Assembly (NCBI GenBank): GCA_017470145.1
Contig: JAFUFB010000015.1
Coordinates: forward strand, 1 to 64,000
Origin: Clostridia bacterium
Lineage (GTDB): Bacteria > Bacillota > Clostridia > Christensenellales > Aristaeellaceae
Length of the DNA: 64,000 nucleotides
Direction of reading: 5' to 3'
Position 1 is the stretch's first letter. The number at the start of each line of letters is the position of its first letter. Positions 22,990-36,105 of the stretch are shown here, piece by piece. A program made the translations under genes and the position numbers. Under the pieces are notes generated by a model. The model saw only the letters and a list, made by a program, of their open reading frames with translations. It did no database searches and was not told the origin of the DNA.

Positions 22990-23016
22990 GTTAAATACCT
23001 TTCGAGTTACATTGAT

Positions 23017-23116
23017 CCGCAACCTCAATGGTCGCGACTCCCCACTGGGGAGCTCGCTTCCTTTCGGTTGACCTCAGAACTGACGAAATTTTCGCCACTG
23101 GCGATCGTCAGTTCTT
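23017..23116 (-). repeat. family C structured element, copy C1 (100 bp)
   Basis: Read on the minus strand, the 5' stem AGAACTGACGA/TCGTCAGTTCT encloses the conserved core CGCCAGTGGCG; a second arm CTCCCC-AGT-GGGGAG is flanked by GCGA/TCGC, and CAACC/GGTTG closes it. The stem's first strand includes the pyrE stop codon (23108-23110). Stems differ from C2 and C3 with pairing kept. Confidence 0.92.
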
Positions 23117-23746
23117 CGCCCAGGATTCATCCGACGGATTGTTGCGGAAGGCGATGAGCCGGGCAATGTCGGCAGGCTGGATGTAGCCCTCCTCGGCGGC
23201 CACCTGGGCGATGACGTCGAAATTGGTCAGGGAGATGTTTTTCACATTCGCTGCGGCCAGCCGGTCCAGACCCTTCTGCATGCCGTAGGTGAAGATGGAA
23301 ACGATGCCCAGCACCTCGGCGCCGGCTTCCCGCAGGACATTGACCACTTCGATGACGCTGCCGCCGGTGGAGATCAGGTCCTCCACCACCACGACCTTCT
23401 GGCCGGGCTCCAGCTTGCCTTCGATTTGGTTCTGACGGCCATGATCCTTGGCGCCGCTGCGGACGTAACCCATGGGCAGGCCCAGCAGATGGGCGGTGAT
23501 GGCGGCATGGGCGATGCCGGCGGTGGAGGTGCCCATGAGGACTTGGGCTTCGGGATAGTTTTCCTGGATCAGCTTGGCCAGGCCCTGCTCCACGTCCAGC
23601 CGGACTTCGGGGGCGGTGAGGGTCAGGCGGTTGTCGCAGTATACGGGGCTTTTGATGCCGCTGGCCCAGGTGAAGGGTTCATCGGGGCGGAAGAAGACGG
23701 CGTGGATTTTGAGCAGGTCTTTGGCGATGGTTCTTTGCATATTCAT
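23108..23746 (-). CDS. pyrE: orotate phosphoribosyltransferase
   Basis: The 212-residue enzyme joins orotate to PRPP to give OMP. It has FTWASGIKSPVYCDNR near the N-terminus, GTSTAGIAHAAITA, and the PRPP motif VVVVEDLISTGGSVIEVV. It sits between pyrF and pyrB in the pyrimidine operon. Its last codons and TGA stop lie inside element C1, so C1 is transcribed as part of the pyrE 3' end. A second in-frame ATG at codon 3 is possible as the start. Confidence 0.95.
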   Translation of the reverse strand: MNMQRTIAKDLLKIHAVFFRPDEPFTWASGIKSPVYCDNRLTLTAPEVRLDVEQGLAKLIQENYPEAQVLMGTSTAGIAHAAITAHLLGLPMGYVRSGAKDHGRQNQIEGKLEPGQKVVVVEDLISTGGSVIEVVNVLREAGAEVLGIVSIFTYGMQKGLDRLAAANVKNISLTNFDVIAQVAAEEGYIQPADIARLIAFRNNPSDESWAKN

Positions 23747-23800
23747 TATCTCCTAATTCATGATGATTGGCTGGTTTTGTTATGGGCGGGACCCCTTTTT

Positions 23801-23900
23801 CCGCAACCTCAATGGTCGTGACTCCACACTGTGGAGCTCACTCCCTTTCGGTTGATCTCACAACCGATGAAATTTCCGCCACTGGCGGTCATCGGTTGTT
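23801..23900 (-). repeat. family C structured element, copy C2 (100 bp)
   Basis: Minus strand: stem ACAACCGATGA/TCATCGGTTGT around the core CCGCCAGTGGCGG, second arm GTGAGCTCCACA/TGTGGAGTCAC, closing CAACC/GGTTG. It lies in the 321-nt pyrF-pyrE gap, next to element B1; together they fill most of that gap, and 23979-24067 holds nothing recognisable. Confidence 0.92.
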
Positions 23901-23902
23901 CG

Positions 23903-23978
23903 TCCCCCTGCCCCCTTTTCCCCCGTGCGCGGGGGAAAGGGGATTATTTTGGGGTGGGGCTGCGCCCCACGGCCCCCT
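23903..23978 (-). repeat. family B GC-rich element, copy B1
   Basis: Minus strand: GTGGGGCGCAGCCCCAC hairpin, then CCCCCGCGCACGGGGG hairpin and a G/C-rich tail. Sense orientation relative to the pyr operon. Confidence 0.85.
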
Positions 23979-24067
23979 AATGAGAAGCAAGCGTTTGAAG
24001 CGATCCCATGTCCGTTTAGTAATTTGATAGCATTTAGTGTGGGGTGTAATCCCATGTCTATTTTGTA

Positions 24068-24766
24068 TTAGCCGACGAATTCGTCAATGCACCTTTGATA
24101 AGCCTTGACGGGGTCGGGGGCGGCGGTGATGGGGCGGCCCACGACGATGTAATCCGAGCCGATGGCCTTGGCCTGGGCGGGGGTCATGACTCTTTTCTGA
24201 TCGCCTACATCGCCATCCGCGAAGCGGACGCCGGGGGTGACGGTCAGGAAATCGGCGCCGCAGGCTTCATGGACCTTGGCGGCCTCCAGAGGGGAGCACA
24301 CCACGCCATCCAGCCCGGCCTGACGGGCGTTGCGGGCGTAGTGCATGACCACCTGGTCGATGGGCTCATGGATCAGCAGATCCCGCTCCATGCTCTCCTG
24401 ATCGGTGGAGGTCAGTTGGGTCACGGCGATCAGCAGGGGCCGGGTGCCATCCGGGCGGGTCAGCCCCTCCAGGGCGGCCTGCATCATGGGGATGGTACCG
24501 GCGGCGTGGAGGTTGCAGATATCCACCTCCAGCCCGGACAGGACGGCCATGGCTTTCTTTACCGTGTTGGGAATATCATGAAGCTTAAGATCCAGAAAGA
24601 TGGGATGGCCCCGGCGCTTGATCTCCCGGACGATCTGGGGCCCTTCAGCATAGAACAGCTCCATGCCGATTTTCACAAAAGGTTTACGGCCGGTGAAATG
24701 GTCCAGAAAATCATAGGTTTGCTGGGCGCTGGCAAAATCGCAGGCAATGATGACGTCTTTTCCCAT
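24068..24766 (-). CDS. pyrF: orotidine 5'-phosphate decarboxylase
   Basis: The 232-residue enzyme converts OMP to UMP. It has [17 protein letters not shown] at the N-terminus, [13 protein letters not shown], the catalytic [16 protein letters not shown] (Asp-Lys-Asp array), [13 protein letters not shown] and [19 protein letters not shown] for phosphate binding. It is the short bacterial type. Its ATG overlaps the pyrD stop by one base (TGATG), so the two are coupled. Confidence 0.96.
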
Positions 24767-25677
24767 CAGTGGGCACCTCCAATGATTTCTTTCAGGGTTG
24801 AAATATGATAGCGATCCATGACCTCGGGCAAGGCCTGGATGATATCCCGACAGGCATAGGGGTTCACCAGGTTTTCCGCGCCGATTTCCACCGCCGTGGC
24901 GCCGGCCAGCATCATCTCAATGACATCCTCCGCGCTGGCGACGCCCCCCATGCCGACCACGGGAATCTTCACAGCCCGGGACACCTGATACACCATGCGC
25001 AGGGCTACGGGGAAGATGGCGGGGCCGGAAAATCCCCCCATGGTGTTAGCGATGACGGGGCGCTTCGTCTTCAGATCGATCCGCATGCCCAGCAGCGTAT
25101 TGATGAGGCTGATGCCGTCCGCCCCGGCCTCCTCGCAGGCCTGAGCGATGGCGACGATGTCCGTCACGTTGGGGGAGAGCTTCAGGATCACCGGCTTGGT
25201 GGTCACGGCCTTCACCGCCCGGGTCACCTCTGCTGCGGCCTTCGGATCCGTGCCGAAGGACATGCCGCCCCCATGAACATTGGGGCAGCTGACATTCACC
25301 TCCAGCCAGCCCACCTGGGGCTCCCGATCCAGGGCGGCGCAGGTGTAGGCGTACTCCTCCACGGAGAAGCCGCTGACATTGGCCATGACGGGCTTATGAA
25401 AGCAGGCCTTCAGCCGGGGAAGCTCCTGGGAAATCACCTTTTCCACCCCGGGATTCTGCAGGCCCACGGCGTTGATCATGCCGGAGGTGCATTCCGCGAT
25501 GCGGGGCGTGGGGTTGCCGAAGCGGGGCTCCCGGGTGGTTCCCTTGAAGGAGAAGGTGCCCAGCAGGTTGATGTCATACAGCTCGGCGAACTCATAGCCA
25601 TAGCCGAAGGTGCCGGAGGCGGGGATGACCGGGTTATCCAGGGAAAGACCGCAAAGATCCACACTTAAGCGTCCCAC
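24766..25677 (-). CDS. pyrD: dihydroorotate dehydrogenase, class 1B catalytic subunit
   Basis: The 303-residue FMN enzyme has the class 1 catalytic cysteine in [37 protein letters not shown] and [19 protein letters not shown] for FMN phosphate. Class 1B enzymes pair with PyrK and use NAD. Its coding region overlaps pyrK by 13 nt and pyrF by 1 nt, so pyrK-pyrD-pyrF form a tightly coupled unit, as in lactic acid bacteria and Bacilli. Confidence 0.96.
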
Positions 25678-26399
25678 AGGATCTCCTCCTTTCGCAGCAC
25701 CGGGCCATCCTTGCAGATGCGCTTATATCCGGCGGCGGTTTTGCAGCTGCAGCCCATGCAGGCGCCGAAGCCGCAGCCCATGCGCTCCTCGAAGCTGAAT
25801 TCGCCATCCGTGGCTGTGGCGCGATCCACCGCCCGCAGCATGGGCAGGGGGCCGCAGGTATAGAAATAGGAATATTCCGGGGGCAGATGATCCGTGACGA
25901 AGCCCTTTTCCCCATAGCTGCCGTCCACGGTAGTGACGGTAACCCGGGCGCCCAACTGCCGGAAGGATTCCTCCAGGAAAACCTCCTCCCGGGTGTTGAA
26001 GCCCAGGATCACGGAAACCTGCTTCCCCTGGGCCAGGAGCTGCCTGGCCAGATAGAACAGGGGCGGGATGCCCACGCCGCCTCCCAGCAGCAGGGGATGA
26101 TCCCCGGAGCGGGAGAGGTCGTAGCCATTGCCCAGGCCGGTCAGCAGATTCAGGGGCTGACCGGGATGCAGGGCGGCCATGTCCGCCGTGCCGCCGCCCA
26201 CCACCTTATAGATCAGGGTCAGGGTGCTGCCGGACACATCGCAAACGGAGATGGGGCGGCGAAGGTAGCGGTGGGGGAGCTGAAGGTTGACGAATTGGCC
26301 GGGGGCAGTGATGGCGGAGGTGTCCCCCTGAAGGCGCATCCGGTAGATGGCCGGGGCCAGGGGGAGGTTATCGATGAGGGTGAAAATACTTTCTTTCAT
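25665..26399 (-). CDS. pyrK: dihydroorotate dehydrogenase electron transfer subunit
   Basis: The 244-residue flavoprotein of the ferredoxin-NADP reductase superfamily passes electrons from PyrD's FMN to NAD. FAD-binding RRPISVCDVSGSTLTLIYKV, NAD-binding LLGGGVGIPPLFYLARQL and a C-terminal 2Fe-2S cluster motif (CGFGACMGCSCKT followed by KRICKDGPV) are present. It directly precedes pyrD with a 13-nt overlap, the usual arrangement for class 1B. Confidence 0.95.
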   Translation of the reverse strand: MKESIFTLIDNLPLAPAIYRMRLQGDTSAITAPGQFVNLQLPHRYLRRPISVCDVSGSTLTLIYKVVGGGTADMAALHPGQPLNLLTGLGNGYDLSRSGDHPLLLGGGVGIPPLFYLARQLLAQGKQVSVILGFNTREEVFLEESFRQLGARVTVTTVDGSYGEKGFVTDHLPPEYSYFYTCGPLPMLRAVDRATATDGEFSFEERMGCGFGACMGCSCKTAAGYKRICKDGPVLRKEEILWDA

Positions 26400-26422
26400 G
26401 GGAATAGTCCTTTGTGTTTATT

Positions 26423-26637
26423 GGGGGAGCCCCCCTTACCCCTGCCCCTTTCCCCCCGTGCGCGGGGGGAAGGGATTATTTAGGGGTGGGGCTGCGCCCC
26501 ACCGGCCCCTTTGTTGGCTTTTGTTGGAAGGGGTATTTCTGTAGCAGGGTCGCCTTTAAACGCTCTGGTTAAGGGATTATTTAGGGGTGGGGCTGCGCCC
26601 TACCTGCCCCTCTGTTGGCTTTTGTTGGAAGGGGTAA
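26423..26637 (-). repeat. family B element B2 plus a partial tandem copy
   Basis: A full B element (26423-26510) is followed by a second copy of its GTGGGGCGCAGCCCCAC half plus adjoining sequence: 26472-26539 and 26571-26637 are about 65-bp near-identical units. The partial copy carries GTAGGGCGCAGCCCCAC, a single change that weakens the stem. It fills the pyrK-carB gap. Confidence 0.85.
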
Positions 26638-26641
26638 GGTA

Positions 26642-29600
26642 TTATGCGTCTATGGTGGAGATCGTCAAGGTTGTTTCCTCCAGCACGTCCAGCAGCACCC
26701 GGACGGTATCCAGGGAGGTGAAGATGGACACGTTGTTATCCGTGGCCAGGCGGCGAATCTCCATGCCGTCGGTGGCCTGGTCTGCGGCGTCGATGCGGCG
26801 GGTGTTGATCACATAGGCGATATGCCCCTGGCGAATGGCATTGGGGATTTCATCGCTGCCATCGCTGATCTTCTTCAGCACATGGGTGCGGATGCCGTGC
26901 TGCCGCAGGAAATTGGCGGTGCCCTCGGTGGCCTGAATATTGAAGCCCAGGTTGTAGAACCGGCGAATCAGGGGCAGGGCCTCCTCCTTGTCCTGGTCCG
27001 CCAGAGTGGCGAAGACGGTGCCGTAATTCTGCAGCCGCATGCCGCCGGCCTGCAGGGCCTTATACAGAGCGCGGTTCAGCTTGTTGTCGTATCCGATGGC
27101 TTCGCCGGTGGACTTCATCTCCGGGGACAGATACACATCCAGGCCCTTGATCTTGTTGAAGGAGAACACAGGCACCTTGACGTAGAAGCGCTTCTTTTCC
27201 TCCGGATAGAGGCAGAAGATGCCCTGCTCCTTCAGGGTCTTGCCCAGGATGACCTCCGTGGCGATGTCTGCCAGGCTGTATCCGGTGGCCTTGCTCAGGA
27301 AGGGCACCGTGCGGGAGGAGCGGGGGTTCACCTCGATGATGTACACATTCTCCTGCTTGTCCACGATGAACTGAATGTTATAGAGGCCCCGAATGCCGAT
27401 GCCCAGGCCCAGCTTCTTCGCGTACTGCAGGATGACGCCCTTCACCTTGTCGGAGATGCTGAAGGTGGGATAGACGGAGATGGAATCGCCGCTGTGGATG
27501 CCGGTCCGCTCTACTAATTCCATAATGCCGGGCACGAACACATCCAGCCCATCGCAGATGGCGTCCACTTCCACTTCCTTGCCCTGGATGTATTTATCCA
27601 CCAGCACGGGCTTATCCGCGTCGATCTCCACCGCGGTTTTCAGATATTTCCGCAGCTGGGCCTCGTTGCCCACGATCTGCATGGCCCGGCCCCCCAGCAC
27701 GAAGCTGGGGCGAACCAGCACAGGATAGCCGATCTCCTGGGCGGCGGCTACCCCATCCTCGATGTGAGTCACGGCTTGGCCCTTGGGCTGGGGGATACCC
27801 AGCTCCAGGAGGATCTTCTCGAAGCTGTCCCGATTCTCCGCCCGCTCGATGGCCTCGCAGTCGGTGCCGATGATCTTCACCCCCCGCTCCATCAGGGGCT
27901 GGGCCAGGTTGATGGCGGTCTGGCCGCCCAGGGAGGCGATGACGCCCTCGGGCTGCTCGAAATCCAGAATGGCCATCACGTCTTCGGGGGTCAGGGGCTC
28001 GAAGTAGAGCTTATCGGCGGTGGTATAATCGGTAGAAACGGTTTCCGGATTGTTATTGATGATAATGGCCTCATAGCCGGCCCGCTTGATGGTCTGCACG
28101 GCATGAACCGTGGAATAATCGAACTCCACGCCCTGGCCGATGCGGATGGGGCCGGCGCCCAGCACGACGATTTTCTTCTTTTCCGTCAGGCGGGAATCGT
28201 TCTGATTCTGATAGGAAGAATAGAGATAGGCGATGTACTTCCCGGTGTGCAGGGTGTCCACCATGCGGAACACGGGGGTGATGCCCTCCTGCTTTCGCAG
28301 CTGGTAGACCGCCACCTCCTCCATCTTCCACAGCCGGGCGATATATTGATCTGAGAAGCCCAGCTGCTTCGCCTCCTTCAGCACGGGGAGGGAGCCGATG
28401 TTCTGCCGCAGAGTATCCTCCATGGCCACGATGCGCTGATAGCTTTCCAGGAACAGCTCCGTGATCATGGTCTTTTCATGCAGGGTCTGAATGGATACGC
28501 CCCGGCGCAGCAGCTCGAAGAGGGCGTACACCTGGTCGTCCCGGAAGGTTTCGATATATTCCAGCAGCTGATCCTCCGTCCAGGCGTCGAACTTTGCCAG
28601 ATGGAAATGGCATACGCCGGTTTCCAGGCTGCGGACGGACTTCAGCAGGCATTCCTCCAGGGTGGAGCCGATGCCCATGACCTCGCCGGTGGCCTTCATC
28701 TGGGTGCCCAGGGTGTTGGGCGCGGAGGCGAACTTATCAAAGGGGAAGCGGGGGAATTTGGCCACGATGTAATCCAGGCTGGGCTCGATGGCCGCGGTGC
28801 CGCCGGCCACGGCGATCTCCTCCAGGGCCATGCCCAGGGCGATTTTCGCCGTCACCCGGGCGATGGGATATCCGCTGGCCTTGCTGGCCAGGGCGGAGGA
28901 GCGGCTGACCCGGGGGTTTACTTCGATGAGGTAATATTCGCTGCTGGTGGGATTCAGGGCGAACTGCACATTGCAGCCGCCTTCGATCTTCAGCTCCCGA
29001 ATGATGCGGATGGCGCTGTCGTTCAGCATCTTCAGGTCGTGATCGTTCAGGGAGAGAATGGGGGCCACGACGATGCTGTCGCCGGTATGGACGCCCACGG
29101 GGTCGATGTTCTCCATGCCGCAGATGGTAATGGCGTGGTCATTGCTGTCCCGCATGACCTCGAATTCGATTTCCTTATAGCCCTTGACGCTCTTTTCCAC
29201 CAGCACCTGATGCACCGGGGAGAGGGCGAAGCCGTTCATGGCGATCTCCACCAGCTCGGCCTCATCGTTGGCGAAGCCGCCGCCGGTGCCTCCCAGGGTG
29301 AAGGCAGGGCGCAGCACTACGGGGTAGCCGATGCGCTGGGCCGCGGCCTTCGCTTCGTCGATGCTGTAGGTGATCTCGGAGGGGATTACCGGCTCGCCGA
29401 TCTTCAGGCACATTTCCTTAAACAGCTCCCGATCCTCCGCCCGCTCGATGCTCTCGCTGCTGGTGCCCAGCAGCTGGGTGCCGCATTCCCGGAGGACGCC
29501 CTTCTTTTCCAGCTGCATGGCCAGATTCAGGCCGGTTTGGCCGCCGATGCCGGGAACGATGGCGTCGGGACGCTCGTAGCGGAGGATTTTGGCGATGTAT

Positions 29601-29815
29601 TCCAGGGTCAGGGGCTCCATGTAGACCTTGTCGGCGATGGTGGTGTCGGTCATGATGGTGGCGGGGTTCGAGTTACAGAGGATGACCTCGTATCCCTCCT
29701 CCTTCAGGGCCAGGCAGGCCTGGGTGCCGGCGTAGTCGAATTCGGCCGCCTGGCCGATGACGATGGGGCCGGAGCCAATGATCAGGACTTTTTTGATGTC
29801 GGTGCGCTTTGCCAT
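26642..29815 (-). CDS. carB: carbamoyl-phosphate synthase large subunit
   Basis: The 1057-residue protein has the duplicated ATP-grasp synthetase halves (KVLIIGSGPIVIGQAAEFDY and VVLGAGPIRIGQGVEFDY at the two pre-ATP-grasp starts; VRPAFTLGGTGGG and VRPSFVLGGRAMQ) and a C-terminal MGS-like allosteric domain (IQATEGTANFLRQHGI). It makes carbamoyl phosphate from bicarbonate, ATP and ammonia delivered by the small subunit CarA. carA is not in this operon or window. The start at 29815 follows AGGAGG by 9 nt. Confidence 0.96.
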   Translation of the reverse strand: MAKRTDIKKVLIIGSGPIVIGQAAEFDYAGTQACLALKEEGYEVILCNSNPATIMTDTTIADKVYMEPLTLEYIAKILRYERPDAIVPGIGGQTGLNLAMQLEKKGVLRECGTQLLGTSSESIERAEDRELFKEMCLKIGEPVIPSEITYSIDEAKAAAQRIGYPVVLRPAFTLGGTGGGFANDEAELVEIAMNGFALSPVHQVLVEKSVKGYKEIEFEVMRDSNDHAITICGMENIDPVGVHTGDSIVVAPILSLNDHDLKMLNDSAIRIIRELKIEGGCNVQFALNPTSSEYYLIEVNPRVSRSSALASKASGYPIARVTAKIALGMALEEIAVAGGTAAIEPSLDYIVAKFPRFPFDKFASAPNTLGTQMKATGEVMGIGSTLEECLLKSVRSLETGVCHFHLAKFDAWTEDQLLEYIETFRDDQVYALFELLRRGVSIQTLHEKTMITELFLESYQRIVAMEDTLRQNIGSLPVLKEAKQLGFSDQYIARLWKMEEVAVYQLRKQEGITPVFRMVDTLHTGKYIAYLYSSYQNQNDSRLTEKKKIVVLGAGPIRIGQGVEFDYSTVHAVQTIKRAGYEAIIINNNPETVSTDYTTADKLYFEPLTPEDVMAILDFEQPEGVIASLGGQTAINLAQPLMERGVKIIGTDCEAIERAENRDSFEKILLELGIPQPKGQAVTHIEDGVAAAQEIGYPVLVRPSFVLGGRAMQIVGNEAQLRKYLKTAVEIDADKPVLVDKYIQGKEVEVDAICDGLDVFVPGIMELVERTGIHSGDSISVYPTFSISDKVKGVILQYAKKLGLGIGIRGLYNIQFIVDKQENVYIIEVNPRSSRTVPFLSKATGYSLADIATEVILGKTLKEQGIFCLYPEEKKRFYVKVPVFSFNKIKGLDVYLSPEMKSTGEAIGYDNKLNRALYKALQAGGMRLQNYGTVFATLADQDKEEALPLIRRFYNLGFNIQATEGTANFLRQHGIRTHVLKKISDGSDEIPNAIRQGHIAYVINTRRIDAADQATDGMEIRRLATDNNVSIFTSLDTVRVLLDVLEETTLTISTIDA

Positions 29816-29880
29816 GGGTGAGATCCTCCTTGTGCTAATCTGGTGGAATAAATGTTGGTTGGCCTTTATCGTTTCGGGCG

Positions 29881-29966
29881 GGTGCCCCTCTCCCCTGCAC
29901 CCCTCCCCCCACTGCGGTGGGGGACGGGGATAAATTAGTGGGTGGGGCTGCGCCCCACCGGCCCCG
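29881..29966 (-). repeat. family B GC-rich element, copy B3
   Basis: Minus strand: GTGGGGCGCAGCCCCAC hairpin, then CCCCCACCGCAGTGGGGG hairpin. Sense orientation, in the pyrC-carB gap. Confidence 0.88.
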
Positions 29967-30007
29967 TTCATTCTTAGCTGAAGTTGGGGAAAAGAATGCT
30001 GCAATTT

Positions 30008-31198
30008 CTACAGCGAGGTATACACGGGAGAGTTATCCAGTACTGTCATCACGCATTTCCCGAACACATTTCTACCTTCAAAGGGAGTAGCCTTTCCTTG
30101 GGAGAGGAAGTCCTTGGGATCGATAGGATAAGATGCGTTCAGGTCCCAGACGGTGAAGTCTGCTCCCAGGGGAATATGGAAGCGCTGGCGGGGGTTGGTG
30201 GAGAGTAGATCTACCAACCTTTCCAGGGAGAGGACGCCGGGCTTAACCAGGCCGGTGTACAGCAGCGGGAAGGCGGTTTCGATGCCTACGATGCCGAAGG
30301 CGCTGCCCGCCAGACCCTTGCTCTTTTCCTCAGCGGAGTGGGGGGCGTGGTCCGTAGCAATCATATCTATGGTGCCATCCAGCAGACCCTCCAGCAACGC
30401 CTCCTGATCCTCCCGGGAGCGCAGGGGCGGGTTCATCTTGAAGCGGCCCTCCTCCTGCAGATCGTTCTCGTTCAGCAGCAGGTAATGGGGGGCGGTTTCG
30501 CAGGTTACGTCCACCCCCTGCCGCTTGGCCTGGCGAATGATTTCCACGCTCTCCTTGCAGGAGATGTGGCACACATGGTAGGCGCAGCCCGTTTCCGCCG
30601 CCAGGCGCACATCCCGGGCGATGGGGCCCCATTCGCTCTCGCTGCAGATGCCCTTGTGGCCATGAGCCCGGGCATAGGCGCCGTCGTGGATGTAGCCCCC
30701 GCGGAGCAGGCTGTTGTCCTCGCAGTGGGCGGCGATAACCTTGCCCAGCCGCTTCGCCGTCCGCATGGCAGCCTTCATCATCTCCGGATCCTGCACGCCC
30801 TTGCCATCGTCGGAAAAGGCGATGACCTCCGGCGCCAGACCCTCCAGATCCGCCAGCTCCTGGCCGGCCTCGCCTATGGAGATGGCGCCGTAAGGATAAA
30901 CATGGATGGCGGCGGTGTTCCGAATCAATTCCTGCTGGGGCGCCAGATGGTCGGGGCTGTCCGGCACCGGGTTCAGGTTCGGCATGGCGCAGACGGCGGT
31001 ATACCCGCCCCGGGCCGCCGCCCGGCTGCCGGAAGCGATGGTCTCCTTATAAGAAAAACCCGGCTCGCGAAAATGCACATGCACATCGCAAAAGCCGGGA
31101 AAAATAGTGAAATCATGATCCGAATCCAAAAGGGAAGAATACCAGCCCTCCTGTCTGGGGTCGAAGGGCGTCTGGGGTACGACGGAAATCAAACCCAT
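30008..31198 (-). CDS. pyrC: dihydroorotase (type I)
   Basis: The 396-residue zinc amidohydrolase cyclises carbamoyl aspartate to dihydroorotate. It has PGFCDVHVHFREPGFSYKE (the HxH metal site), CAMPNLNPVPDSP, AFSDDGKGV, VIAAHCEDN, YHVCHISCKES and IATDHAPHSAEEK. It is the first gene of the pyrimidine operon; AGGAG precedes the ATG by 8 nt. A consensus promoter is 70-100 nt upstream and the short leader carries no PyrR-type attenuator that I can see. Confidence 0.95.
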   Translation of the reverse strand: MGLISVVPQTPFDPRQEGWYSSLLDSDHDFTIFPGFCDVHVHFREPGFSYKETIASGSRAAARGGYTAVCAMPNLNPVPDSPDHLAPQQELIRNTAAIHVYPYGAISIGEAGQELADLEGLAPEVIAFSDDGKGVQDPEMMKAAMRTAKRLGKVIAAHCEDNSLLRGGYIHDGAYARAHGHKGICSESEWGPIARDVRLAAETGCAYHVCHISCKESVEIIRQAKRQGVDVTCETAPHYLLLNENDLQEEGRFKMNPPLRSREDQEALLEGLLDGTIDMIATDHAPHSAEEKSKGLAGSAFGIVGIETAFPLLYTGLVKPGVLSLERLVDLLSTNPRQRFHIPLGADFTVWDLNASYPIDPKDFLSQGKATPFEGRNVFGKCVMTVLDNSPVYTSL

Positions 31199-31265
31199 GT
31201 TCCTTGCTCCTTTACGCGTCTTGCCGACTTCACGGAATCGGCTTAAAGATCAGCGACCGGGGTGG

Positions 31266-31294
31266 ATTATAGCGTATCCCTCCAGGACTGTCAA
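31266..31294 (-). promoter_or_regulatory. pyrimidine operon promoter
   Basis: Minus-strand TTGACA (31289-31294), exact 17-nt spacer, TATAAT (31266-31271): full consensus. The roughly 60-nt leader contains GCCGA-TTCCGTGAAG-TCGGC but no long attenuator. Confidence 0.9.
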
Positions 31295-31392
31295 GGCTTT
31301 TCTTTGTTCGGATTTTGGCCGAGATAAACTGGTTTTAACTCGCCCAAAGACGACAAAAGAGGACAAAAACACGAACTTTCAAAAATTTATGC

Positions 31393-31422
31393 TTGACAAG
31401 ATTCGGAATGGGATGCTACACT
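31393..31422 (+). promoter_or_regulatory. purine operon promoter
   Basis: TTGACA (31393-31398), 18-nt spacer, TACACT (31417-31422). Predicted start near 31429, just upstream of the riboswitch. Confidence 0.85.
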
Positions 31423-31443
31423 TGCGACGCGCTTGAGGCGCCG

Positions 31444-31566
31444 AATCCCGTGACTGACGGAGCAGTGGAAGAAGACCACAGGGGAGCGGGAGATGCGAGA
31501 AATGCCGACCGTCTGGGCGCACTGAGTTCCTTGCGAAGGAGGGGCTCGCGTGCGTCCTTTTCATTT
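31444..31566 (+). ncRNA. ZTP (pfl) riboswitch controlling the purine operon
   Basis: The aptamer (31444-31521) shows ATCCCGTGACTG...GTGG/CCAC...AGGGGAGCGGGA, with TCCCG (31446-31450) pairing CGGGA (31487-31491), and the second domain GCCGACCGTCTGGGC, the conserved pieces of the ZTP/ZMP aptamer. Known ZTP riboswitches turn on de novo purine and folate genes when 10-formyl-THF is short. Downstream, CGCAC...GTGCG with an inner GAG/CTC and TCCTTTTC can form a terminator overlapping the aptamer's 3' edge, suggesting transcriptional control. Structure is by eye. Confidence 0.85.
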
Positions 31567-31586
31567 CCGGAAGGGGGAGAACACTG

Positions 31587-32075
31587 ATGCGCAAGGTAGG
31601 CATCATCATGGGCAGCGACAGCGATCTGCCCATCGTCGCCAAGGCGACGGACGTGCTGAAGAGTTTGGAAATTCCCTTTGAGGTGCATGTTTATTCCGCC
31701 CATCGGACTCCGGAGGAGGCTCGGGATTTCGCGCTTCAGGCCCGGGAGAATGGCTTCGGCGTCATCATCGCCGCGGCGGGCATGGCTGCCCATCTGGCCG
31801 GGGCCCTGGCGGCGAACACGATTCTGCCCGTCATTGGCATCCCCTGCAAGGGCGGCGCCCTGGACGGGTTGGACGCCCTGCTTTCCACCGTGCAGATGCC
31901 CAGCGGCATCCCCGTGGCCACGGTGGCGCTGAACGGCGGAGCCAACGCGGCCCTGCTGGCGGCCCAGATGCTGGCCCTGGAGGATGAGGCCCTGGCGGAG
32001 AAGCTGTTATCCCGCCGGGCGGCGGAGAAGGCCGCGGTGCTGGAGAAGGACGCGGGGATTATGGAGAGACTGTAA
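31587..32075 (+). CDS. purE: N5-carboxyaminoimidazole ribonucleotide mutase (PurE)
   Basis: The 162-residue protein has the PurE signatures [33 protein letters not shown] and [23 protein letters not shown]. It rearranges the carboxyl group to give CAIR. purK, which makes its usual substrate, is not in the window. It is the first gene behind the ZTP riboswitch; AAGGGGGAG precedes the ATG. Confidence 0.95.
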
Positions 32076-32086
32076 CGGAGTTACCT

Positions 32087-32250
32087 GTTTAGTCGTGCGA
32101 AGGGATGTTTCACTCCGGGACCCTTGGAGGACGTCGGTACTTAGGCGGTGGCGAGCGCGCACGCGTGAAGGCAGCGCCTTTGTACCGCTACGTCCGGAAC
32201 GGAGCGAGAGCGTGTCCAGGAGGGAAATTCCCGCGCGCTTACGACTAAAC
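32087..32250 (+). repeat. family A structured repeat, copy A3
   Basis: Terminal stem GTTTAGTCGT/ACGACTAAAC, conserved GAAGGGATGTTTCACTC and GGAGGGAAATTCCCGCGCGC. Sense orientation in the purE-purC gap. Confidence 0.92.
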
Positions 32251-32318
32251 TCAACCTTTGTTGGAACAGGCGAAAGCCTTCCAAATATATTTTTCATAAT
32301 CATAAGGAGTGGATCACC

Positions 32319-33005
32319 ATGGAACAGAAGCTTGTTTACACCGGCAAGACCAAGAATGTCTACGCACTGGACAACGGAAACTACCTGCTCAAGTTCAAGG
32401 ATGACTGCACGGGTAAGGATGGCGTGTTCGATCCCGGTGAAAACTCTGTGGGATTGACCATCGAGGGCGTGGGCGATGTAAACCTGCGGATGTCCATTTA
32501 CTTCTTCGAAAAGGTGAACGCGGCGGGCATCAAAACCCATTATGTCAACGCGGATCTGGAGAACACCACCATGGAAGTGCTGCCGGCCAAGGTTTTCGGC
32601 CATGGGCTGGAAGTCATCTGCCGCCACAAGGCCGTGGGCAGCTTCATCCGCCGCTATGGGGATTACATCGAGCCCGGCACCGATCTGCCGGCCTATGTGG
32701 AAATGACCTTTAAGGACGACGCCAAGGGCGATCCGCTGGTGACCAAGGATGGGCTGATCGTGCTGGGCGTCATGACCGCCGAGCAGTATGACAAGATCAA
32801 GGAAATGACCCAGCAGATCACCCAGATCGTGGCCGACGATATGAAGGAAAAGGGCCTGGTGCTGTATGACATCAAGTTCGAGTTCGGATACGACGCGGAT
32901 GGTAACGTGATGCTGATCGACGAGATCGCCTCCGGCAATATGCGGGTGTACAAGGATGGGGAGTATATCGATCCCATGACGCTGAGCAAGCTGTTCTTCG
33001 CTTAA
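32319..33005 (+). CDS. purC: SAICAR synthetase
   Basis: The 228-residue ATP-dependent ligase joins CAIR and aspartate. It begins [20 protein letters not shown], with GKTKNVY the SAICAR synthetase nucleotide loop, and has [17 protein letters not shown] and [22 protein letters not shown]. Length is typical for the short bacterial enzyme. The start follows AAGGAG. It lies between repeats A3 and A4. Confidence 0.95.
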
Positions 33006-33017
33006 TCTGAATCGCAA

Positions 33018-33052
33018 GGGTATTCCAGCCGGGTTCCCCGGCTGGAATACCC
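33018..33052 (+). other. strong 15-bp hairpin after purC, followed by TATAAT
   Basis: GGGTATTCCAGCCGG (33018-33032) pairs perfectly with CCGGCTGGAATACCC (33038-33052). It lacks a T-run, so it may be a processing or stability hairpin rather than a terminator. TATAAT follows at 33053-33058 without a clear -35. Confidence 0.6.
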
Positions 33053-33077
33053 TATAATCGTTTTAATGAAGATAAAG

Positions 33078-33278
33078 ACTACCCAGCCGTGCGAAGGGAT
33101 GTTTCACTCAGGGGCCCTTGGAAGACGTCGGCACTTAGCGGGTGGCGAGCGCGCTGCTGCGCGCGGTGCGCGTGCGATTCCTTGCGCGCGAAGGCAGCCG
33201 CTTTGTGCCGCTACGTCTGGAACGGAGGCGCGAGCCGTGCCCCGGAGGGGAACTCCCGCGCGCTTACGGCTGAGTAGT
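33078..33278 (+). repeat. family A structured repeat, copy A4 (expanded arm)
   Basis: Terminal stem ACTACCCAGCCGT/ACGGCTGAGTAGT (one wobble) differs from other copies with pairing kept. The internal GC arm is expanded by about 30 bp. Sense orientation, purC-purF gap. Confidence 0.9.
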
Positions 33279-33305
33279 TACAGTAAACAAAGGAGCATAC
33301 ATCCA

Positions 33306-34730
33306 GTGGGTGGATTTTTTGGCATCACCTCCAGGCGGGATTGCCTGGCGGACGTGTTTTTCGGCGTGGATTACCACAGCCATCTGGGAACCCGCCGGGG
33401 CGGGCTGGCGGCCTGGGATCCGAAGATCGGGCTGCAGCGGAAGATTCATAACATTGAAAACGCCCCCTTCCGCACCAAGTTTGAGCACATCTTTGAGGAA
33501 ATGAAGGGCACCAGCGCCATCGGCTGCATCAGCGATTCCGATCCCCAGCCCCTGCTGGTCCGGGCCCGGTGGGGGGCCTATGCCATCTGCATGGTAGGGG
33601 TCATCAACAACAGCCAGGAGCTGATCGACCAGTGCCTCAGCCGCAGCGGCAGCTATTTCGACGCCATGACCGGCGGCCGGGTGAACAGCACGGTGCTCCT
33701 GGCGGCCATCATCAACCAGAAGGAGGACTTCGTCTCCGGCATTCGCTATGCCAACGAGATCATCGAGGGGACGGCTTCCATCCTCATCATGAAGGACGAT
33801 GGCCGGCTCATCGCCGCCCGGGATCGATACGGGCGATTGCCGGTGCATATTGGTCAGGCGGAGGACGGCTACGCCGTGTCCTTCGAGACCTTCGCCTATG
33901 AGAAGATGGGATACGAGGATGTGCGGGACCTGGGGCCCGGCGAGATCGTGGAGATGGGGACAGAGGGCGTGACCCAGCTGAGTCCGCCGGGGGATACGAA
34001 GCGAATCTGCTCCTTCCTCTGGACCTATTATGGCTATCCTACCTCCAATTATGAGGGGGTCAACGTGGAGGCCATGCGATATCGCAACGGCGCCATCATG
34101 GCGGAGCACGATATGGCCCAGCATTCCGTCTGGGATATTGATTATGTGGGCGGGGTGCCGGATTCCGGCACACCCCACGCCATCGGCTACGCCAACCGCA
34201 GCGGCAAGCATTTCGCCCGGGCCTTCATCAAATATACCCCAACCTGGTCCCGCAGCTTTATGCCCAGCAGCCAGAGCGACCGGAACAAGATCGCGAAGAT
34301 GAAGCAGATTCCCGTCAGCGAGCTGATCAAGGGCAAGAACCTGCTGTTTGTGGACGACAGCATCGTCCGGGGAACCCAGCTGAAGGAGACGGTGGATTTC
34401 CTGTACGAAAACGGCGCCAAGACGGTGCATATGCGCTCCGCCTGCCCGCCCATTATGTACGCCTGCAAATATCTGAACTTCTCCCGCTCCAACAGCGATA
34501 TGGATCTCATCGCCCGGCGGGTTATCGTCGAGCTGGAGGGGGAGGAAGGTCTGAACCATATCGACGAGTACAGCGATGGCACAACAACTCGCGGCAAAGC
34601 CCTGCGGGACGCCATCTGCCAGAAGTTCAATTTCACCTCCCTGGAGTTCCAGAGCCTGGAAGGCGTTATCGCGGCGATAGGGCTGCCGAAGTGTGAGTTA
34701 TGCACTTACTGCTGGGACGGCAAAGAATAG
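33306..34730 (+). CDS. purF: amidophosphoribosyltransferase homolog lacking the N-terminal catalytic cysteine
   Basis: The 474-residue protein has the PurF layout: N-terminal Ntn glutaminase-like domain (GVDYHSHLGTRRGGLAAW) and C-terminal PRTase with NLLFVDDSIVRGTQLKETVD. Standard PurF starts MCGI with Cys after processing as the glutaminase nucleophile; here the chain starts (V/M)GGFFGITSRRDC, with glycine instead. The GTG at 33306 follows AGGAG by 10 nt and no upstream start restores a cysteine. PRPP amination from ammonia, or help from another glutaminase, is inferred. A CELCTYC cluster ends the protein. Same operon as purC and purM. Confidence 0.85.
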   Translation: MGGFFGITSRRDCLADVFFGVDYHSHLGTRRGGLAAWDPKIGLQRKIHNIENAPFRTKFEHIFEEMKGTSAIGCISDSDPQPLLVRARWGAYAICMVGVINNSQELIDQCLSRSGSYFDAMTGGRVNSTVLLAAIINQKEDFVSGIRYANEIIEGTASILIMKDDGRLIAARDRYGRLPVHIGQAEDGYAVSFETFAYEKMGYEDVRDLGPGEIVEMGTEGVTQLSPPGDTKRICSFLWTYYGYPTSNYEGVNVEAMRYRNGAIMAEHDMAQHSVWDIDYVGGVPDSGTPHAIGYANRSGKHFARAFIKYTPTWSRSFMPSSQSDRNKIAKMKQIPVSELIKGKNLLFVDDSIVRGTQLKETVDFLYENGAKTVHMRSACPPIMYACKYLNFSRSNSDMDLIARRVIVELEGEEGLNHIDEYSDGTTTRGKALRDAICQKFNFTSLEFQSLEGVIAAIGLPKCELCTYCWDGKE

Positions 34731-34814
34731 GGCCAGTGGGGCGCAGCCCCACCACTAAAATCTCCCCGTCCCCCACCGAGGTGGGGGGAGGGGTGCAGGG
34801 GAGAGGGGTCCCCT
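34731..34814 (+). repeat. family B GC-rich element, copy B4
   Basis: GTGGGGCGCAGCCCCAC hairpin, then CCCCCACCGAGGTGGGGG hairpin; sense orientation, starting right at the purF stop. Confidence 0.88.
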
Positions 34815-34856
34815 CAATCAACGACGAAATGACGGTCAAGGAGAATTAATACCAAA

Positions 34857-35894
34857 ATGAACCAATCTCACTCTGCGTCCTACGCCGCGGCCGGCGTGGA
34901 CATCGAAGCCGGATACAAGGGCGTCCAAATGATGAAAAAGGACGTCCAGCGCACATACATTCCCGGGGTCGTAGGCGACCTGGGAGGCTTCGGCGGCCTC
35001 TTCGCCCCGAACCTGACGGGCCTCAAGGAGCCGGTGCTGGTGTCCGGCACCGACGGCGTGGGCACCAAGCAGCGCATCGCCCAGCTGATGGACAAGCACA
35101 ACACCGTCGGCATCGACTGCGTCGCCATGTGCGTTAATGACATCATCTGCTGCGGCGCTCAGCCCCTGTTCTTCCTGGACTACATCGCCATCGGCAAGAA
35201 CATCCCGGAGAAGGTGGCGGCCCTGGTGTCCGGCGTGGCGGAGGGCTGCGTCCAGGCGGGCTGCGCCCTCATCGGCGGGGAGACAGCGGAGCATCCCGGC
35301 ACCATGCAGCCGGAGGATTACGACCTGGCGGGCTTCTCCGTCGGCGTGGTGGATAAGGAAAAGATCCTGGACCGCAGCGCCATGCGGGTGGGGGATATCG
35401 TCATCGCCCTGCCTTCCAGCGGCGTCCACAGCAATGGATTCTCCCTGGTTCGGAAGGTGTTCGACATCGAGCACGCGGACCTGGGGGCTCAGGTCAGCGA
35501 CCTGGGGTGCTCCCTGGGGGAGGCCCTGCTGGAGCCCACCCGCATCTATGTCAAGCCCGTGCTGGCGGCCCTGGCCGAAGCGGAAATTCATGGCATCAGC
35601 CACATCACCGGTGGCGGGTTCTATGAGAACATCCCCCGGTCCATTCCCGATGGGCTTTGCGCCGTGATCGACAAGGCGGCTATTCGTACCCCGGCCATCT
35701 TCTCCCTCATCGCCCGGCAGGGGAACATTCCGGAGCGGGATATGTTCAACACCTTTAACATGGGCGTGGGCATGAGCGTGGTGGTCTCCAAGGAGACCAC
35801 GGATCGGGCCCTGGCCGTTTTCCAGGCCCAGGGTGTGGAAGCCTATGTCATCGGCGAAATCGCGGAAGGCGAAAACAAGATTGAGTTGAAATAA
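34857..35894 (+). CDS. purM: phosphoribosylaminoimidazole (AIR) synthetase
   Basis: The 345-residue enzyme closes the imidazole ring. It has YAAAGVDIEAGYKGVQ, LVSGTDGVGTKQRIAQ, DIICCGAQPLFFLDYIA, IGGETAEHPG and LPSSGVHSNGFSLVRKV, all PurM motifs for ATP and FGAM binding. AAGGAG lies upstream at 34841-34846, a long spacing of about 12 nt. It is followed by the nested A5/C3 repeat. Confidence 0.95.
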   Translation: MNQSHSASYAAAGVDIEAGYKGVQMMKKDVQRTYIPGVVGDLGGFGGLFAPNLTGLKEPVLVSGTDGVGTKQRIAQLMDKHNTVGIDCVAMCVNDIICCGAQPLFFLDYIAIGKNIPEKVAALVSGVAEGCVQAGCALIGGETAEHPGTMQPEDYDLAGFSVGVVDKEKILDRSAMRVGDIVIALPSSGVHSNGFSLVRKVFDIEHADLGAQVSDLGCSLGEALLEPTRIYVKPVLAALAEAEIHGISHITGGGFYENIPRSIPDGLCAVIDKAAIRTPAIFSLIARQGNIPERDMFNTFNMGVGMSVVVSKETTDRALAVFQAQGVEAYVIGEIAEGENKIELK

Positions 35895-35900
35895 ACTCTT

Positions 35901-36105
35901 AATGAGGCGAAGGGATGTTTCACTCAGAGGCCCTTGGAAGACGTCTGGAACGGGCGAACCTCTGGCGACCGCCAGTGGCGGAAATCTCGCCAGAGGTGAG
36001 GTCAACCGAAAGGAAGCGATCTCCCCTGTGGGGAGTCGCGACCATTGAGGTTGCGGAAAGAGAGCGTGCCTCGGAGGGGAACTCCCGCGCGCCTATGACG
36101 GAGAA
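35901..36105 (+). repeat. family A copy A5, internally deleted and interrupted by element C3
   Basis: A's left part (GCGAAGGGATGTTTCACTC...GGAAGACGTC) jumps straight to TGGAACGG, as if deleted between the two ACGTC copies that close A's main arm. Element C3 then sits between TGGAACGG and GAGAGCGTGCC. The terminal stem is no longer well paired. purM-purN gap, sense orientation. Confidence 0.9.
35957..36056 (+). repeat. family C structured element, copy C3 (100 bp), nested in A5
   Basis: Stem ACCTCTGGCGA/TCGCCAGAGGT around CCGCCAGTGGCGG, second arm GCGATCTCCCC-TGT-GGGGAGTCGC, closing CAACC/GGTTG. Same 100-nt length and same sense orientation as C1 and C2. Confidence 0.92.

Follow-up and report, generated by a model that had tools for sequence, protein, structure and literature searches.

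Three structured repeats (C1, C2, and C3), located beside pyr and pur genes in a 64,000-nt stretch of a Clostridia bacterium genome (family Aristaeellaceae, order Christensenellales; assembly GCA_017470145.1, contig JAFUFB010000015.1; this whole stretch is hereafter the window), are probably copies of a non-autonomous mobile DNA element that resembles the repetitive extragenic palindromes (REPs) and consists of a GG[GA]N tag and two imperfect hairpins with irregular stems. The element is interspersed and lineage-specific, lies 3' of GG, and occurs nested within other hairpin repeats as well as in tandem arrays; at one and the same locus, related species differ by whole hairpin modules. The most fitting interpretation is a new family of mobile DNA double hairpins that resemble REPs. 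A preliminary description of the window had attributed the covariation between the stems of C1–C3 to selection on RNA folding. The reading as a functional RNA class is partly supported: a larger alignment built with a covariance model contained massive covariation, whereas the substitution pattern and the lineage-specific insertions spoke against selection on an RNA fold. C1, C2, and C3 are copies of one 102-nt unit with two hairpins each, and the unit was taken as 102 nt because conserved letters add one base on each side of the 100 nt first described.

Distribution and Probable Mobility of the Element

Searches with blastn detected eight near-full-length copies of the C1–C3 type in the own genome, plus more distant relatives. 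The covariance model R1, which was built from 11 copies, gave 32 matches in this genome at an expectation value (E) of ≤1, including 29 at E < 1e-7. A second type (P) was found among these copies; it often begins at a gene stop codon and occurs in tandem arrays of approximately 102–105 nt. One of the genes preceding P-type copies encodes an ABC-type permease (PF00528), and further ones were named by eye. All 25 genomes of the genus that were searched with R1 contained copies (2–42 each), and none of the 16 genomes from other families of the same order did. Under strict filters, family-level matches (E ≤ 1e-5) came from 18 of 150 genomes, representing 8 of 50 genera, and 4 of 248 drawn genomes, all belonging to the own genus, matched at the order level. 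A DNA pattern for the core of hairpin 2 was present in at least 118 genome contig stretches, and the 80 matches listed came from Clostridia/Clostridiales assemblies, many of them from herbivore guts, and from Candidatus Limiplasma; a link to Aristaeella is presumed. The same pattern occurred in three contigs of a viral collection (L420, L421, and L422). Plasmid sequences searched with C3 gave no match, and no publication on this element was found among the titles and abstract openings listed.

Corresponding sites in related genomes mostly lacked the element. The pyrE gene was found in 36 of the 45 genomes of the genus, and its 3' end was occupied in two of these, the own genome and G049. The C2 site upstream of pyrE (approximately 1–1.5 kb examined) was occupied in the own genome only (1 of 36), and a full element directly upstream of purN, the C3 site, was likewise restricted to the own genome (34 of the 36 purN genomes examined). 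A conserved association with orthologous genes was therefore absent at the pyrE 3' end, upstream of pyrE, and at purN. At the purM-purN junction, G006 carried a hairpin-1-like hairpin alone after GGGGG (an 18.9-bit match), and G015 harbored an element copy approximately 1.1 kb upstream of purN. The pyrE end of G049 contained two identical 104-nt tandem units and an 18-nt partial unit ending at a hairpin apex, after TGGGC; C1 begins after the same pyrE TGGGC, which places the element at the same position in two species. G015 reads TGGGCAGACTGA at the pyrE end, and AGACTGA, the apparent old gene end, was displaced downstream of the array in G049.

Eleven copies of G041 were compared with their counterparts in G023 and/or G001, and ten counterparts appeared empty (L116, L119, L126, L160, L161, L165, L166, L168, L172, and L173; flank identity of 81–99%), while the alignment of L177 was too rearranged to call. 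R1 gave one weak match on the 20 fetched counterparts (14.5 bits, E 0.2), in L345, the counterpart of L177. The cleanest empty site, that of L165, reads GATTTGGGTAACAACTG when empty and GATTTGGG-element-ACAACTG when filled; the insertion lies within another hairpin repeat, after GATTTGGG, and TA was lost or changed. The element at L166 also lies within the hairpin of another repeat. Modules differ between species at the same locus, as seen in L129 (G041) and L154 (G023), of which the downstream flanks are 99.75% identical and hairpin 2 is kept, but the 5' hairpin module is wholly different. The 5' arms overlap the ends of pyrE, kinase, and permease genes, and copying of this arm from the host target was considered. 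This was rejected because the arm is missing wherever L165 and L166 (and L161, if orthologous) have an empty counterpart and because the apparent old gene end in G049 lies downstream of the array; judged from these sequences, the 5' arm arrives with the element.

The nucleotides directly 5' of the unit were strongly constrained, with G at position −4 in 97% and at position −3 in 100% of 94 copies (GG[GA]N), and GGG was located within 5 nt of the unit in 83 of the 94 copies (background, 4.8%). Only exact, adjacent direct repeats were scored at the junctions; none was present in 91 of the 94 copies, and the other three had 2 nt. Insertion 3' of a short motif without target duplication, as in elements of the IS200/IS605 type, was therefore observed, with L166 ambiguous on the motif. 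At L020 (G000:C27:164245), a D-type element lies between 16-nt direct repeats, GAGTGAAAGAAGCGTC, where the upstream gene ends; the repeat may have arisen by target duplication or may be what is left of a second copy that is incomplete.

Other repeats were observed around the copies. A larger repeat, GAGCAGTTGTCCAAATCTTTGATTTGGG..ACAACTGCCATGC, carries C elements at one fixed point (L123, L126, L130, L132, L134, L138, L163, and L165), and in L039, L040, L050, L052, L153, and L157 nested hairpins result from insertions of other hairpins, either into the tip of hairpin 2 or into the space that separates the two hairpins. Downstream of tRNA-Met, -Ala, and -Pro, an antisense tRNA 3' half, a C element, and a sense T-arm copy follow in this order as judged by eye (L146 460–960, L174, L133, L171, L131, L121, and L167), and the C element at these loci may be enclosed by tRNA-derived sequence that forms a third stem on the outside.

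Stem Covariation and Substitution Patterns

The stems covaried throughout an alignment of 94 distinct copies. Standard pairs occupied 98.1% of cells (80.7% in shuffles). The model used to collect the copies favors paired stems, and imperfect pairs are undercounted as a result. Both-sided changes affected 26 of 31 pairs (18.6 in shuffles) and 505 cells (129.4 in shuffles), none of 500 shuffles attained the observed covariation values, and at most 74 cells with both-sided changes remained when the partner was slid by 1–3 columns. Within the window, the outer arms differ between copies yet are perfectly complementary, and GCGA/TCGC with CTCCCC/GGGGAG alternates with GTGA/TCAC with CTCCAC/GTGGAG, both as first described. 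The constancy of the core held among C1–C3 only: family-wide, covariation extends to CAACC/GGTTG, to CCGCC/GGCGG (the inner stem), and to one more pair in the core. Both-sided changes were observed in three of the five CAACC/GGTTG pairs, and the additional core pair, beside GAAA, was C-G in 38, G-C in 36, A-T in 12, and other in 2 of 88 rows. The GAAA/TTGA zone behaves like a helix: 87 of 94 rows have the tandem G.A mismatch in it, and four are fully Watson-Crick (GATA/TATC in three and AATA/TATT in one). The shape, including the bulge and the tandem G.A zone, was conserved while the stem sequences varied.

The mismatches did not carry the signature of an RNA strand. The 88-row set used for these counts was drawn from 124 distinct rows of 99–103 nt by leaving out 13 “other” and 17 P-type rows. 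A threshold of 22 Watson-Crick pairs out of 32 took away another 6 of the 94 C-type rows and is thus selective against poorly paired ones; in the 94-row set 6 of the 13 “other” rows are restored. Among the 2,816 cells of the smaller set (88 rows by 32 pairs), 2,693 were Watson-Crick, 29 G.U, 33 A.C, and 61 other. With the added pair excluded, G.U (29) and A.C (31) were equally rare (binomial p of 0.90), and this lack of a G.U excess counts against selection on the RNA strand, which should favor G.U. Infernal priors should, if anything, favor copies with G.U. For comparison, the 18 distinct tRNAs found at these loci contained 16 G.U and 4 A.C, a small sample obtained with ARAGORN, which favors G.U. 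Comparisons between nearest neighbors (63 of 70 used; seven with more than six differing pairs were omitted) gave 129 both-sided Watson-Crick replacements, of which 75 were of the transition and 54 of the transversion type, vs. 38 one-sided changes (15 to G.U, 12 to A.C, and 11 to other mismatches); ten further changes fell outside both counts (eight both-sided other, and two one-sided between non-standard pairs).

The surplus of both-sided replacements, with its share of transversions, is also what would be expected if the covariation were mainly mutational, with template switching between the arms and conversion between copies re-pairing the stems without structural selection, an account that we consider rather unlikely. 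Multi-pair stem changes can arise by template switching, a mechanism that has been proposed for RNA stems (PMC8794818). At one tRNA-Pro locus the entire tip stem is CTCCAC/GTGGAG in G023 and G001 vs. CTGTCC/GGACAG in G041. However, the new tip is present in other copies, and conversion with another copy is therefore at least as likely as template switching. Furthermore, the irregularities (the 5-nt bulge, the tandem G.A zone, and the G.G mismatch) were retained rather than perfected, and the inverted loop (ACT) was absent from both hairpin loops in all 94 rows.

Weighing of the Mobile-Element Interpretation

Several observations weigh against a mobile DNA element. No Y1 transposase match was found in the own assembly (83.7% complete), R1 had no match in the 28 Y1 loci examined (L348–L375), which are a subset of the Y1 genes of the genus, and the 20 longer ones among them, which resemble REP-associated tyrosine transposases (RAYTs), are flanked by other palindromes, e.g., CAAGACAA-GGGGACGGTTCTT-TTGTCTTG (by eye). 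Among the empty sites, L161 has the flanks of lowest identity (81–88%), and paralogous operons were possibly compared there; the empty relatives of L166 read GTGAG/GTGTG, not GTGGG, and GG may come with the element at that site. A shared G.G mismatch was retained in 16 of 88 rows, which indicates that perfect pairing is not essential. Transposition of the IS200/IS605 type would predict a bias toward the lagging-strand template, and the placement of copies was inconsistent between genomes in this respect (negative skew on the element strand at 23 of 30 loci in G041 and 12 of 30 in G023), in a test covering 60 loci, not all copies, in which local skew is confounded by gene direction. Finally, of the 29 own-genome copies, 26 run in the sense direction of both neighboring genes, as an RNA function would also predict; two are antisense to both and one is undecided on one side.

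This placement is one of the reasons to consider a cis-acting structured RNA, either an operon-internal regulator or a stabilizer of mRNA 3' ends, that is maintained by selection on the transcript and has spread secondarily by duplication. The strong covariation is of the kind sought in cis-regulatory RNAs, many copies in the own genome lie directly 3' of stop codons, including those of ABC-permease-type genes, and the folds are very stable, C1–C3 having z-scores of −6.2 to −7.6 on the sense strand relative to dinucleotide shuffles (0 of 200 shuffles equal). However, the opposite strand folds about equally well (z of −6.2 to −7.7), and G.U was no more frequent than A.C. The orientation toward genes, described before as sense, holds for C1–C3 but is mixed in other genomes: all four combinations of neighbor direction occurred in G023 (32 rows) and in G041 (30 rows), three occurred in G001 (10 rows), and some cases were undecided, in counts that rest on a home-made codon-score gene calling. 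Sense placement is not a family rule. Nearly all corresponding sites lack the element, and copies sit within other repeats. The earlier remark that no known RNA class was recognized was upheld, as Rfam 15 contained no family for C1–C3 at the gathering score; around C1 and C2 nothing was found at E ≤ 10, and the best sub-threshold match over C1 was HgcC (19.6 of 50 bits). We therefore regard a structured RNA as an unlikely explanation for the family. Single copies may have an RNA role, although the family-wide evidence points to DNA.

A retroelement-like RNA, recognized by its structure and reverse-transcribed back into DNA, would be compatible with the compact two-domain fold, with the proximity of the own-genome copies to gene ends, and with the tRNA 3' halves that flank some elements as antisense and sense copies. 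In contrast, neither an adjacent target duplication nor a tail was seen, and the parity of G.U and A.C does not fit such an RNA. This origin appears very improbable.

Copies in the Window

The three copies were located where they had been described (C1 and C2 on the minus strand and C3 on the plus strand; Table 1). The gene order is pyrF-C2-pyrE-C1-pyrB on the minus strand and purM-C3-purN on the plus strand, with gene names assigned from NCBIfam, and all three copies are sense to their neighbors. Across the family, the loop of hairpin 1 is usually AGT, and the three-base loop of hairpin 2 is mostly AGT. C3 is probably part of a longer composite repeat, since its flanks are similar to those of copies L026 and L043. 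The only Rfam match in the window at the gathering score was a ZMP/ZTP riboswitch (31440–31525), shortly 5' of an open reading frame at 31587.

Table 1. Positions of the element copies and their parts in the window.
Feature	Position	Strand	Description
C1	23016..23117	-	Full two-hairpin element in the pyrE/pyrB gap; 116.2 bits (R1)
C1 5' arm	within 23016..23117	-	Holds the pyrE stop codon (TGG GCG AAG AAC TGA)
C1 hairpin 1	23076..23115	-	11-bp variable outer stem, 5-nt bulge on the 3' side, 5-bp inner stem, AGT loop
C1 hairpin 2	23020..23070	-	CAACC/GGTTG, GAAA/ATTGA tandem-G.A zone, GCGA/TCGC + CTCCCC/GGGGAG stem, AGT loop
C1 tag	23118..23121	-	GGGC (motif GG[GA]N) at the 5' foot, in Trp-Ala codons of pyrE
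C2	23800..23901	-	Full element in the pyrF/pyrE gap; 115.8 bits (R1)
C2 tag	23902..23905	-	GGAC at the 5' foot
C3	35956..36057	+	Full element in the purM/purN gap; 116.1 bits (R1)
C3 hairpin 1	35958..35997	+	
C3 hairpin 2	36003..36053	+	
C3 tag	35952..35955	+	GGGC at the 5' foot

Proposed Mechanism and Significance

As a REP-like mobile element, C1–C3 would be recognized by shape, i.e., the tag, bulge, tri-loop, and helix length, rather than by stem sequence, and the element probably acts as folded single-stranded DNA. It may be joined to its targets by an HUH-type enzyme (IS200/IS605 or TnpA-REP-like) or by a comparable single-strand transferase. The stem sequences could then drift freely provided that the arms match, and matching would be renewed because only well-paired copies spread, possibly aided by conversion between copies and by repair in which one arm serves as template for the other (template switching). 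The transferase, its excision step, and the manner of arm renewal are all inferred. Within transcripts the element is also predicted to form very stable RNA hairpins, which makes an effect on pyr and pur operon mRNAs likely, though as a secondary matter. A bolder version, which we put forward only tentatively and consider doubtful, is a self-re-pairing hairpin transposon with pure recognition of DNA shape, in which nearly free stem letters would be renewed in both arms together, a candidate single-strand transferase of its own would be present, and RNA covariation would be mimicked. Y1 transposase matches were present in 28 of the 45 genus genomes, but a RAYT or other Y1 enzyme was not adopted as the partner because R1 had no match in the fetched Y1 loci. 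At the RAYT-like loci (L356–L375), the flanking palindromes have variable arms around a similar core (GGGGACGGTTC etc.) and are, by eye, possibly a second case of re-paired arms.

Covariation is usually treated as near-proof of a functional RNA, and here extreme covariation occurs without the asymmetry of G.U over A.C and together with the behavior of mobile DNA. The ratio of G.U to A.C and the ratio of both-sided to one-sided changes therefore offer a cheap filter for RNA discovery pipelines. The family also lends itself to the study of palindrome repair by template switching in nature and provides a target in the search for a candidate hairpin transferase in Clostridia that are known here mainly from metagenome-assembled genomes.

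Comparison with Known Systems

The preliminary description had named a known mobile element with ends that explain the pairing as the finding that would speak against an RNA. In substance a mobile element was found, but not one already described, and the pairing does not follow in any simple way from the ends of the element. Miniature elements derived from IS200/IS605 (PATE-like) have irregular hairpin ends, insert 3' of a short motif, and produce no target duplication. The present element is similar in these features and differs in being a single short unit for which no autonomous parent was found. Structured RNAs in Rfam share with it the covarying stems and conserved loops; in contrast, the element has no family match and no G.U excess, and its copies are lineage-specific insertions.

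Hairpin elements of fungal and sponge mitochondria are described as potentially mobile, and some are double hairpins that arose via tandem insertion (PMC2800124). They differ in belonging to organelle DNA, and two sponge types are described as having conserved stems and slightly different loops (PMC2800124), which is the opposite of the present element.

The closest resemblance is to the REP/BIME/REPIN sequences that are associated with TnpA-REP (RAYT). These are short interspersed palindromes that are mostly intergenic, non-autonomous, and often tandem, with a tag at the 5' foot and, in one REP group, bulged stems (PMC8266576; PMC3733652); the REPs of E. coli comprise a tag and a bulged palindrome, and TnpA-REP requires the bulge (PMC8266576). 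The element is likewise an interspersed, multi-copy, intergenic palindrome. On the other hand, the tag is GTAG or CGTC in REPs and GG[GA]N here, and no Y1/RAYT gene flanked by the element was found among the 28 fetched loci. Furthermore, the element is a 102-nt pair of two unlike hairpins in one orientation, with an almost free stem sequence.

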